Assembly: GCA_947626145.1 (NCBI GenBank) | Contig: CANQRB010000001.1 | Span: 124,001-188,000 of the forward strand | Direction: 5' to 3' | DNA: 64,000 nt | DNA from: an uncultured Clostridia bacterium | GTDB lineage: Bacteria > Bacillota > Clostridia > UMGS1883 | Shown: positions 3,760-7,064 of the stretch, one piece after another | Layout of the letters: each line of letters starts with the position of its first letter | Numbering within the stretch: position 1 is the stretch's first letter | Translations under genes and position numbers: made by a program | Notes under the pieces: generated by a model | Seen by the model: only the letters and a program-made list of their open reading frames with translations | Told to the model about the DNA's origin: nothing | Databases searched by the model: none

Positions 3760-3788
3760 TTGAAAAATTCGGCGGGACGTGATATAAT
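3760..3788 (+). promoter_or_regulatory. Sigma-A promoter of the interrupted gene
   Basis: TTGAAA (3760-3765), 17-bp spacer, TATAAT (3783-3788). It lies about 90 bp upstream of the ATG at 3880, so the 5' fragment, and the restored gene, would be driven by the vegetative polymerase. Confidence 0.8.
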
Positions 3789-3879
3789 AGGAGCGAAATG
3801 TAACAAATTTCAACAGTCCTCATAATATGTACTGTGGTTCGGCTCATGCCGGCCAAAGATGATATAGGAGGATTGTTAC

Positions 3880-4344
3880 ATGGAGGAAAAGATTTCCGGC
3901 TCCTTCGGCTGCAACGAAAAGGTCTGCATCCAGACGGATCAGATCTATGACAGCTGTCGCAGCAAGGAGTGCATTGAATGTCTGAGGGTCTTTCTCACCG
4001 AAACCGGTCAGGAAGTCATTGACCGGGCCATTGATGTGAAGTGCCGCAAGGCCGAAGTAATCTGGGTTTTCCCAAACGTCGAGCCCCTCACCTTCAATCG
4101 CGGCTACTACACCGTTGATTTGACATACTTTTTCCGTCTGACACTTGAGGTATACACAGGAGTTTCCCGCCCAGTGACCGTGGAAGGCCTGGCCTCCTTC
4201 AACAAGAAGGTCGTGCTCTTCGGTAGCGAGGGAAGCGCGAAGATTTTCACCTCAAAGTATAAGGAGGACAGCTTCGATCCTCAGCTTTGGCAGAAAACGA
4301 ACATGCCAAAGGCAGTAGTGGAGGTGAGTGTCACAAAAGTATAA
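3880..4344 (+). pseudogene. 5' part of an interrupted cysteine-rich clostridial protein gene
   Basis: It encodes 149 residues of genuine protein followed by five element-derived residues (SVTKV) and a stop. The start has a strong AGGAGG site. The sequence (CNEKVCIQTDQIYDSCRSKEC, then a beta-rich NRGYYTVDLTYFFRLTLEVY stretch) matches my memory of a conserved clostridial family of roughly 270-330 residues with no assigned function. The coding sequence breaks after PKAVVEV at the pentamer GAGGT (4321-4325). The rest of the protein resumes at 6677. Joining 3880-4325 to 6677-7064 gives 834 nt, a single 277-aa frame with VEV running into VDPICLG. As it stands the gene yields a truncated product unless the element is excised. 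Confidence 0.85.
4321..4334. other. Left junction (attL) of the intervening element
   Basis: Contains the core GAGGT (4321-4325) followed by the element-side arm GTGTCAC (4328-4334). This arm is the exact inverse complement of GTGACAC at 6660-6666 near the other end. Confidence 0.75.
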
Positions 4345-4368: not shown

Positions 4369-5064
4369 ATGCGATATAAGGCGATATTCTTTGACCGCGA
4401 CGGAACATTGACCTACTACGACCCTGAAAAGGAAAAGTGGCGTGACGAAATGATCTCCGGCTGGAGCGGAAAGCCCTTTGAGCTGGACTATGACAAAATG
4501 ATGTCTCTTTTCAACCTGGCCGGAGATGGAAAAAGCCCTTGGTACAGAAATGTTGACGACGAACGTGAGTTCTTCCGGCGTTATTACCGGCACTTGCTCA
4601 TTGGCGAGGGAGTTACGGAAAAGGTTGAAGAACGCGCCGACCTGCTGCATTCGGAGCTGTGGTGCAATAATGACCGCAGGCTGTTTGACGAAACCGTTGA
4701 GGTTCTCGAATATTTTCACGGCAAAGGGTACAAAATGGGTGTTATCAGTGATACCTCGCCGTCGTTGAAGCTTACGCTGGACAGCTTGGGGATTTCGAAG
4801 TATTTCACATCATTTACCGCAAGCTCACTTGTGGGCGCCGGCAAGCCCAGTCCGGTCATATACAACGCCGCCCTTGACGCCCAGGGAGTTACGGCGGAGG
4901 AAAGTCTGTATGTGGATGACTGCAAGCTTGAGGCCGACGGGGCAAGGGTGTTGGGTTTTACCTCCTTCTGGCTGGACAGGAATGGCGAGGGAGAGGACGA
5001 GCCCTGGCGCATAACCGAATTAAAGGATATAATTAAATATTTAAGCAATAAAGGAGTAGATTGA
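4369..5064 (+). CDS. HAD-superfamily hydrolase
   Basis: A 231-residue haloacid-dehalogenase-type phosphatase. Motif I is DRDGT (residues 9-13, nucleophile and acid/base Asp), motif II SDTS in GVISDTSPS, motif III the Lys of GAGKPSPVIY, and motif IV VDDCKLEADGA. A helical cap of about 80 residues separates motifs I and II. It probably removes phosphate from a small cytoplasmic metabolite; the substrate is unknown. A good GGAGG site precedes the ATG. It is the first gene inside the intervening element and is followed one base after its stop by the HMA gene. Confidence 0.85.
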   Translation: MRYKAIFFDRDGTLTYYDPEKEKWRDEMISGWSGKPFELDYDKMMSLFNLAGDGKSPWYRNVDDEREFFRRYYRHLLIGEGVTEKVEERADLLHSELWCNNDRRLFDETVEVLEYFHGKGYKMGVISDTSPSLKLTLDSLGISKYFTSFTASSLVGAGKPSPVIYNAALDAQGVTAEESLYVDDCKLEADGARVLGFTSFWLDRNGEGEDEPWRITELKDIIKYLSNKGVD

Positions 5065-5065
5065 T

Positions 5066-5299
5066 ATGAAAAAGATTCTTACAGTTGAAGGAATGCACTG
5101 CGAGCACTGCAAGGCAAACGTTGAAAAGGCTCTTTCCGCCGTTGCGGGTGTAAGCTCCGCCAAGGTCGATTTGGGCAAAAAGACCGCCACAGTCAGCCTT
5201 TCCGGCGACGTAAGCGACGCCGCACTCACCGAGGCGGTAGCAGCCACCGGTTTCCAGGTAACAGGTATTGCGGAGAAAAAGGGGCTTTTTGACAAGTAA
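5066..5299 (+). CDS. Heavy-metal-associated (CopZ-like) domain protein
   Basis: A 77-residue single HMA domain. The metal-binding GMHCEHC motif lies at residues 9-15 (Cys12 and Cys15) and the ferredoxin-like beta-alpha-beta pattern fills the rest, the usual size for CopZ-type chaperones. Such proteins carry Cu(I) or another soft metal to P-type ATPases or regulators. No copper ATPase or CsoR/CopY is in the window, so the partner is unknown. It lies within the intervening element and overlaps the next gene by one base (TAATG), so the pair is probably translationally coupled. Confidence 0.88.
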   Translation: MKKILTVEGMHCEHCKANVEKALSAVAGVSSAKVDLGKKTATVSLSGDVSDAALTEAVAATGFQVTGIAEKKGLFDK

Positions 5300-5757
5300 T
5301 GTATATAGAGCTCAACAAAAAAATGAAGTCGCTGCTGTCGCCGGACGATAGTCTTGTGACAAATCTCAGCAACGCCTCGGCGCTGTTAAACGAGTATCTC
5401 GAAAACATCAACTGGGTAGGCTTCTATTACCGCAAAGGGGACAGGCTGTTGCTTGGTCCCTTTCAGGGAAAAACGGCCTGCGTTACCATTCCTTTCGGTC
5501 GAGGAGTCTGTGGAACGGCGGCCCAGAATGGCGAGACGCTTGTGGTGCCTGACGTTCACCGGTTCCCCGGGCATATAGCCTGTGATTGTGCCAGCAATAG
5601 CGAGATAGTGGTGCCAATTTTCGCTGACGGCGAGGTCGCCGGTGTACTCGACATTGACAGTCCTGTCGCCGGTCGTTTTACCGACGACGACAGGGCCGGA
5701 CTTGAGCCTGTCGCGGCAATTATAGGCGAGATCTGGGGCAAGGCCGAAAAAATGTAA
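5299..5757 (+). CDS. Free methionine-(R)-sulfoxide reductase (GAF domain, fRMsr)
   Basis: A 152-residue GAF-domain enzyme with the fRMsr cysteine pattern: Cys in RGVCGTAA and two more in HIACDCASNSEIVVPI. Family members reduce free L-methionine-(R)-sulfoxide using these cysteines and thioredoxin. The fold runs from NWVGFYY to the C-terminal VLDIDSP strand, so it appears complete. It is translationally coupled to the HMA gene and closes a HAD-HMA-fRMsr mini-operon inside the element, followed by a terminator. The combination suggests a redox or metal-stress theme, but that is inference only. Confidence 0.88.
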   Translation: MYIELNKKMKSLLSPDDSLVTNLSNASALLNEYLENINWVGFYYRKGDRLLLGPFQGKTACVTIPFGRGVCGTAAQNGETLVVPDVHRFPGHIACDCASNSEIVVPIFADGEVAGVLDIDSPVAGRFTDDDRAGLEPVAAIIGEIWGKAEKM

Positions 5758-5779
5758 AAATATAGACTGGCCATTTTAT

Positions 5780-5807
5780 GAGGGCGGCATATAAGCCGCT
5801 CTTTTTT
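5780..5807 (+). terminator. Terminator after the cargo operon
   Basis: A stem of GGGCGGC and GCCGCTC around an ATATAA loop is followed by a run of six T's. It separates the cargo genes from the recombinase, for which no clear promoter is visible in 5800-5836. Confidence 0.7.
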
Positions 5808-5836
5808 AATATATAAACTCTGGAGGTGTGTATTTT

Positions 5837-6682
5837 TTGCTGCGACTCGCCGCATATTGCAGAGTTTCCACCGATAAGGAGGAGCAAAAGCTGTCTCTTG
5901 AAAATCAGCGAAGCTACTATGCAGAGTACGCGAGAGAGAATAATTTTCGGCTTGTCCGCATATACAGTGATGAAGGCATCAGCGGCAAACAGATGAGGAA
6001 CAGAGTAGGTTTTCTGAACATGATAGAGGAAGGGGAGAGGGGAGAGTTTGATATTCTGGCGGTAAAGGACGTGAGCCGCTTTGCGCGGAACACCTGCGAT
6101 TTTCTTACAGGGATACGCAGGCTGAAGGCCGTTGGGATAGATGTCCGTTTCCTTGGTACAAACTCGTCAATTTTTACCGATTCCGAGTTTATACTTACAA
6201 TATATGCCGCTTTGGCTCAGCAGGAAAGTGAAAATCTGAGCAAACGTGTAATTTTCGGTAAAACTGAGACCGCCCGTAAAGGCAGAGTGCCAAATTTGAT
6301 TTACGGGTACGACAAGGTAAATAACTTTACAATGATTGTCAACCAAAATGAGGGTTACAATGTTCGTAAAGCGTTTATACTTTACGCAGAAAACGGTTTT
6401 TCTCTTACCAACATAGCTGATAAGTTCAACTCTGAAAATGTACAAACGAAGTTGGGCGGCAAATGGAGCGCCAAGACGGTTGGGCGAATAATACGTAACC
6501 CCATCTATATTGGGAAGCTAATCAATCATAAGACTGTAACGGCTGACTTTATCTCCGGTACACGCCGTGAAGTGCCCGAAAATGAGCGCTTTATCCACAT
6601 CCGTCCTGATTTGAGAATCGTAAGCGATGAAATTTTTGAATTGGCTAACGCCATTCTCCGTGACACCAACAGAGGTCGTTGA
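5837..6682 (+). CDS. Short serine recombinase of the intervening element
   Basis: A 281-residue serine recombinase. The resolvase domain begins AAYCRVSTD (catalytic Ser11, Arg9) and continues through SDEGISGKQ and DVSRFARN to QESENLSKR. The Recombinase domain follows, with VPNLIYGYDKV and WSAKTVGRIIRNPIYIGKL. The zinc-ribbon and coiled-coil region that normally follow in large serine integrases are missing; the protein stops just after IVSDEIFELANAILRD. TTG at 5837 is preferred because GGAGG (5822-5826) is 10 nt upstream; the GTG at 5828 is only one base from it. The last codons and the TGA stop lie across attR, so the stop comes from host-gene sequence. Confidence 0.9.
   Translation: MLRLAAYCRVSTDKEEQKLSLENQRSYYAEYARENNFRLVRIYSDEGISGKQMRNRVGFLNMIEEGERGEFDILAVKDVSRFARNTCDFLTGIRRLKAVGIDVRFLGTNSSIFTDSEFILTIYAALAQQESENLSKRVIFGKTETARKGRVPNLIYGYDKVNNFTMIVNQNEGYNVRKAFILYAENGFSLTNIADKFNSENVQTKLGGKWSAKTVGRIIRNPIYIGKLINHKTVTADFISGTRREVPENERFIHIRPDLRIVSDEIFELANAILRDTNRGR
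6660..6676. other. Right junction (attR) of the intervening element
   Basis: The arm GTGACAC (6660-6666), five bases CAACA, then the core GAGGT (6672-6676). Together with the left end it forms the proposed attP dyad. Confidence 0.75.
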
Positions 6683-7064
6683 CCCAATCTGCCTTGGCGC
6701 AAAGCTCTCCGACGTTGGCGAGTGCTGCTGCAAATACGCTGACGACGATGCCGTAGATCTAGGCAATATTCCCGACTGTGTAAGGAGAGTATTTGACGAC
6801 CGCTTTATCTGCGGCCGTGATCAGCAGAGGAGAGTTTATGTTTCCCTCGGCCTATTCACCATTATCAAGCTCGAACGTAACGTTCAGCTGCTCATCCCCG
6901 CTTACGATTTCTGTATTCCTGAAAAGGAGTGCGTCGGCGCGTCGGCTCCCGATGATCCCTGCGATCTCTTTGAGAAAATAAGCTTCCCCATCGATGAGTT
7001 TTTCCCGCCCCAGCAGGACTGCTTCAACCCAGACGATAACAACAACGGATGCTGCTGCAAATAA
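6677..7064 (+). pseudogene. 3' part of the interrupted cysteine-rich clostridial protein gene
   Basis: It encodes 128 residues, from VDPICLGAKLSDVGECCCKY to a C-terminus of GCCCK, with VYVSLGLFTIIKLERNVQ and IPAYDFCIPEKECV between them. There is no usable start: the only nearby ATG (6627) is inside the recombinase gene without a ribosome site. The frame is continuous with the 5' fragment across the GAGGT pentamer. The CCC clusters at both ends of this half suggest metal binding or disulfide chemistry. It is followed directly by a terminator, so 3760-7101 was originally a single monocistronic gene. Confidence 0.85.

Follow-up and report, generated by a model that had tools for sequence, protein, structure and literature searches.

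In large serine integrases, the coiled coil favours recombination between attP and attB and blocks recombination between attL and attR. Two elements that are excised in sporulation by enzymes of this kind lie closest to the element analysed here. One is skinCd, which splits the sigK gene of C. difficile, and whose excision restores that gene in sporulation; its serine recombinase gene (CD1231) directly adjoins the 3' part of sigK on the upstream side (PMC5025042). The other is gin, which interrupts gerE of B. cereus and is likewise excised in sporulation (PMC5595907). Both depend on more than a recombinase: skinCd holds 19 genes, its CD1231 protein has a zinc ribbon and a coiled coil, and CD1234 is needed for excision (PMC5025042), while gin measures 28.6 kb, its GirC recombinase is about 58 kDa with its tag, and GirX is needed for excision (PMC5595907).

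The present element resembles skinCd in that a serine recombinase element splits a Clostridia gene and in that the recombinase gene directly precedes the 3' part of its host, and it is like gin in that it interrupts a gene without being a prophage, encodes a serine recombinase and has a short shared core. In contrast to skinCd, however, its enzyme has only 281 amino acids, elements of its kind span about 1.4-2.9 kb without an evident factor, and they split another host gene. In the window (the whole stretch of 64,000 nucleotides that was analysed), the element occupies 2351 bp and interrupts, at codon 148, a Clostridia gene of 277 codons (Table 1). The sequence GAGGT is common to positions 4321 and 6672, the C-terminal half of the host gene is in frame from 6672, and joining the two halves at GAGGT yields an uninterrupted 277-aa protein. 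Precise excision would thus restore the host frame, as expected of a gene-intervening element, and uninterrupted orthologues are found in eight relatives from other genera of the same family (G008, G009, G010, G013, G014, G015, G018 and G019), seven of which have the same SDR gene upstream. The host protein matched no known family in profile searches, and a model of its fold was set aside for its low confidence (pLDDT 29).

Table 1. Positions of the element, its host gene and its predicted sites in the window
Feature	Position	Strand	Remarks
-10-like box of host gene, CATA type	3821..3831	+	CATAATATGTA; largely conserved upstream
Host gene, N-terminal half	3880..4344	+	codons 1-148, then a short element-encoded tail; joined protein 277 aa
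attL crossover dinucleotide GA	4321..4322	+	sole dinucleotide common to attL and attR there, in every genus copy
attP right arm	4323..4334	+	GGTGAGTGTCAC; symmetric with left arm, 9/12 over 12 bp
HAD-family hydrolase cargo gene	4369..5064	+	Pfam Hydrolase, 6.3e-21; not in every genus element
HMA-domain (CopZ-like) metallochaperone cargo gene	5066..5299	+	Pfam HMA, 4.6e-18; variable presence
GAF-domain protein cargo gene	5299..5757	+	Pfam GAF, 4.3e-14
Terminator-like hairpin with T6, between GAF and recombinase genes	5780..5812 (approximate)	+	predicted fold
Short serine recombinase gene, 281 aa	5837..6682	+	no zinc ribbon or coiled coil (Pfam)
attP left arm	6660..6671	+	GTGACACCAACA; inside recombinase coding sequence
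attR crossover dinucleotide GA	6672..6673	+	same basis as attL GA
Host gene, C-terminal half	6674..7064	+	first bases give recombinase stop TGA 6680-6682

The recombinase starts at a TTG shortly behind the sequence tGGAGGTg, in a frame that is open from 5810. Pfam places a Resolvase domain at residues 5-150 (3.8e-31) and an essentially complete Recombinase domain (PF07508) at 172-276 (3.7e-20, profile positions 3-101 of 102); the protein terminates five residues further on. The Zn_ribbon_recom domain (PF13408) was absent from the short forms in the same Pfam search and present in a full-length cousin at the same site in G011. The enzyme therefore has the catalytic domain of the large serine recombinases, with its active-site serine motif, and their Recombinase domain, but neither the zinc ribbon with its embedded coiled coil nor the half-sites of about 25 bp with an outer motif: it is a large serine recombinase derivative that is missing a defining part. 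A structure model built from 11 short relatives (mean pLDDT 72.6) ends in a helix at 264-280, and its best matches in the PDB are serine integrases, including 4bqq, which comprises only N-terminal and recombinase domains. The first-pass annotation was thus correct in describing an enzyme that stops just past its Recombinase domain, and also in reading its frame across attR to a borrowed stop, since the TGA at 6680-6682 lies past the crossover, in host DNA. That the stop is borrowed is a consequence of where the recombinase gene ends, inside its own attP; the full-length genes of L074 and G061 end likewise.

The genus of the window's own genome (G000) was sampled with eight species, and the host gene is split at the same codon in all of them. 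Seven, the window copy included, have a complete recombinase, which is always short and is 66-95% identical to the window copy; the contig of the eighth (G001) breaks off within the GAF gene, before the recombinase. Values of dN/dS (NG86) for the recombinase fall between 0.04 and 0.10 in six of seven pairs, with dS saturated in the seventh, and mostly do not exceed those of the neighbouring SDR gene (0.09-0.135); the host halves gave 0-0.03 (N-terminal) and 0.006-0.087 (C-terminal). The catalytic motifs YCRVST and SRFARN are invariant across all copies. Given the conserved short form, the purifying selection and the invariant catalytic motifs, the shortening of the recombinase is not decay.

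The GAF gene is the only cargo gene present in all eight elements of the genus. The cargo consists of HAD, HMA and GAF genes in G000, G002 and G007, of HMA and GAF in G003, which like G004 and G006 is missing the HAD gene, and of GAF alone in G004 and G006, whose elements of about 1.37 kb stand at the lower end of the genus range of about 1.4-2.9 kb. The GAF gene is under purifying selection, whereas the HAD and HMA genes come and go. Its product resembles free methionine-R-sulfoxide reductases, whose motifs GVCGTAA and HIACD are conserved in all copies.

A second line of evidence comes from the attachment sites. The GA crossover can be read from pairs such as GATGT/GAGGT (attL/attR) in G004 and GAGAT/GAGGT in G002, and rejoining the arms around it gives the window attP, the near-palindrome GTGACACCAACA-GA-GGTGAGTGTCAC. 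Nine short-form sites, taken together, show symmetry at 85 of the 108 positions within the inner 12 bp (the maximum of 5000 shuffles was 45) and at 36 of 117 in positions 13-25, which is the level of chance (732 of 5000 shuffles as high), while four full-length sites are symmetric at 38 of 52 outer positions (0 of 5000), the sites being related by descent and the shuffles overstating their independence. Full-length sites of G011 and G073 also have a CATTTT-like motif in their outer part. In the structure of the Listeria integrase, the recombinase and zinc domains together contact a 25-bp half-site (PMC3783163), and we take positions 13-25 as the zone of the zinc domain. The sites have shrunk with the protein, the outer symmetry being missing exactly where the zinc domain is missing, which supports the short protein as the working enzyme and argues against a partner that carries the missing domain. 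The two arms also changed together within the genus, though 1.4-2.9 kb separate them when integrated: G000-like sites have GTGACAC/GTGTCAC, versus GTGTCA/GTGACAC in the G004-like sites of G004, G005 and G006 (core GTGTCA on the left, TGACA on the right).

The host gene is common in Clostridia, with strong matches in 113 of 291 sampled genomes by hand count. In 14 of the 113 it is split, or a single half was found, broken near the same codon 148, and the gene is thus a recurrent insertion site in the class. The recombinases found adjoining the host gene belong to one subfamily. Full-length members, with frames of 486-509 aa for the clearest, occupy the same codon in G011, G060, G061 and Anaerotruncus sp. 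G3(2012) (L074), among others, and those of L074 and G061 borrow a host TGA in the same way as the short forms. Unlike the short forms, these cousins have a zinc ribbon and an attP whose symmetry, in those with both arms known, extends to about 25 bp, and they occur in a scattered way, not fixed in a genus. Short forms were also found in six species of a second family. Five of them (G237, G292, G274, G306 and G309) use the same codon and host-derived stops, TAG in two and TGA in three; in the sixth, G043, the element is inverted and the recombinase gene has its own stop and does not reach the attachment site. The short form and the borrowed stop are not a matter of chance, since both recur in each of the seven complete copies of the genus and in five species of the second family. 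The recombinases of G043 (L187) and G197 (L191) point away from the host C-terminal half, inverted relative to other elements at this site, and at L076 the host C-terminal half is also on the opposite strand.

Among strong matches in a class sample of 391 genomes, the short forms are confined to these two families. Every match to the short recombinase in phage and plasmid sets was below 60% identity, the best phage match being full-length, and the best match in a viral set reached 49%. In a tree the short forms group together, with one longer form nested among them, G197 (a 451-aa frame open to the contig end), and a topology constrained to keep them in a single clade receives a weak rejection (p-AU 0.034). 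Two or three losses of the zinc ribbon and coiled coil are thus probable, although the tree does not firmly exclude that they were lost once.

Taken together, these comparisons make it probable that the element is domesticated and skin-like, that it is fixed at one codon, and that its minimal recombinase excises it unaided so that the host gene is restored, likely in sporulation. The evidence is comparative throughout, and most of the genomes are metagenomic assemblies. In the pathway that we propose, the Recombinase domain of the 281-aa enzyme would bind short sites, about 12 bp per half around the GA, and the enzyme would recombine attL with attR on one chromosome. We infer that in this way, most likely in the mother cell during sporulation, the 281-aa protein excises a circle of 2.35 kb and makes the 277-codon gene whole again. 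Loss of the coiled coil would lift the known block on the reaction between attL and attR, and neither a directionality factor nor a C-terminal switch need then be invoked. An element inherited by descent would need excision only, between two sites of one chromosome; loss of the zinc ribbon and coiled coil would allow excision without a factor and discourage integration elsewhere, so that domestication would have stripped exactly the domains used for integration and for the block on excision. No directionality factor is evident, since the smallest elements (G004 and G006) contain nothing beyond the GAF and recombinase genes, and the enzyme would presumably be free of any such requirement. That a recombinase made of the catalytic and Recombinase domains works alone on sites of about 26 bp, with no factor, and has been kept in two families as an excision enzyme seems to us somewhat better than an even proposition.

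Studies of other integrases bear on this pathway in both directions. The Listeria integrase without its coiled coil recombines attL with attR intramolecularly and factor-free, and loses intermolecular recombination (PMC3783163). Its delta-ZD derivative (residues 1-264) has nearly the same domain content as the natural short enzyme, but delta-ZD and delta-CC are laboratory constructs placed on full-length att sites, where delta-ZD bound poorly (PMC3783163), whereas the natural enzyme has altered, shorter sites of its own. Two results count against our reading: binding of the Listeria integrase without its zinc domain is about 25-fold weaker (PMC3783163), and phiC31 integrase does not recombine without its coiled coil (PMC10754689). 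So does a search of the genus assemblies for an excised junction, where the only match was the integrated attL of G004.

If it acts alone, the short enzyme would be a naturally occurring minimal form of large serine recombinase, compact and with sites of 26 bp. What the zinc ribbon and coiled coil do could then be read from it directly, since they have apparently been lost more than once where only excision must persist. Few programmed gene reconstructions are known from spore formers. To these the element would bring a further gene, target codon and family of elements, which go down to 1.4 kb in size and are fixed across a sampled genus.

Perhaps the element never leaves, the host halves act together as separate proteins, and the recombinase is kept for another reason. 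The assemblies show the integrated state only, and all seven complete genus copies have a GTG five codons before the C-terminal half, which overlaps the recombinase end and makes coupled re-initiation conceivable. That GTG, however, forms part of the att arm and lacks a clear ribosome-binding site, and the frame of the C-terminal half offers no start codon that combines a good ribosome-binding site with conservation across the genus. A permanently split gene, moreover, would leave unexplained both the strong selection on the recombinase and the joint change of the att arms, and we regard it as unlikely.

A second alternative, also unlikely, is that the missing zinc ribbon and coiled coil come from another protein of the genome, or that such a protein serves as directionality factor. 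For the latter role the GAF protein is conceivable, its gene being the one invariant cargo; described systems of this kind do use a factor (CD1234, GirX), and the genome has other full-length recombinases. On the other hand, the outer part of the att sites, which would be that of the zinc domain, has lost its symmetry. The partner that had been suggested as the source of the missing domain was sought in the genome, where no free-standing zinc-ribbon protein was found; the one odd match, on contig C7 of G000 (L227, 1537-2986), was rejected as the relic of a large serine recombinase, frameshifted and broken.

The C-terminus might instead set the direction of recombination through its two tails, as the first-pass annotation had proposed. 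In the window species the tail does change: the integrated protein ends in ...NRGR, and in the predicted excised circle its last residue, R, gives way to 17 residues, ECHKSIIYHQTEVQYAI, with a stop at about 4377-4379 (C-terminus ...NRGECHKSIIYHQTEVQYAI), within two residues of the earlier estimate of about 15 ending near 4380. Comparing predicted excised tails across related copies, however, led us to reject the switch. The proteins of G007 and G002 would end in ...DRGECHKSIIYR and ...NRDVCHKSIIYR, with about 9-10 residues changed in each, that of G003 in ...SRGRCHK (3 changed), that of G006 in ...SGRCQ (2) and that of G004 in ...SGRCR (1), while G005 has the identical tail VTGRGR in both states (0 changed). 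The difference between states thus holds for the window species and fails as a general feature; with a change that ranges from 17 residues to none within the genus, a conserved switch is not supported, and in G043 the gene misses the attachment site altogether. We consider such a switch very improbable. Hardly credible at all is the case that the first-pass annotation named as its refutation, a simple 3' deletion that left an inactive remnant, which would fit the loss of two domains and the lack of observed excision but is contradicted by dN/dS below 0.11 in every computable recombinase pair, by recurrence in two families with frames that are open in every copy, the seven complete ones of the genus and the six of the other family, and by shrunken att sites whose architecture tracks the protein.

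If the minimal recombinase does excise the element unaided, its timing would fall to control of expression. In 18 genomes of the family, the host gene is preceded by a largely conserved -10-like box, which mostly reads CATACTATGTA. Boxes of the CATA type are used by sporulation sigma factors, and on this resemblance the box may be assigned to one of them; the spacing is similar to that of the spoIVA promoter, but the -35 parts differ, and the sigma factor was left unassigned for that reason. A sigma-A promoter (TTGAAA-N17-TATAAT, near 3760-3795) was considered and rejected, as it occurs in G000 and close relatives and is not conserved elsewhere. SpoIVA is present in all eight genus genomes, and in 104 of the 113 genomes with the host gene versus 105 of the 178 without it (a hand count uncorrected for kinship), a correlation that may link the host gene to sporulation.

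Control may also act on the recombinase itself, whose start would be guarded by hairpins in several species. The predicted fold of 5755-5845 has an energy of -27.2 kcal/mol (z -3.24). In five genus species (G002-G006) the ribosome-binding site of the recombinase lies within a strong hairpin, whereas G000 and G007 have instead a terminator-like hairpin with a T run upstream of the gene; at the same position, G274 and G237 have hairpins whose sequences are unrelated (z -7.5 and -4.9). The hairpin is not found in the short copies of G292, G306, G309 and G043, and most of the full-length relatives examined have no equivalent. This arrangement suggests that the recombinase is controlled at its synthesis, and not at its C-terminus. 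We also considered that read-through from the host promoter might trigger self-excision, but the hairpins over the recombinase start in several species argue against read-through translation. They may protect against it, and the arrangement resembles the protection of transposase genes from read-through. The start-region hairpins lie at 5780-5828 in the window and upstream of the recombinase start at L053, L054, L056, L057, L058, L185 and L195.
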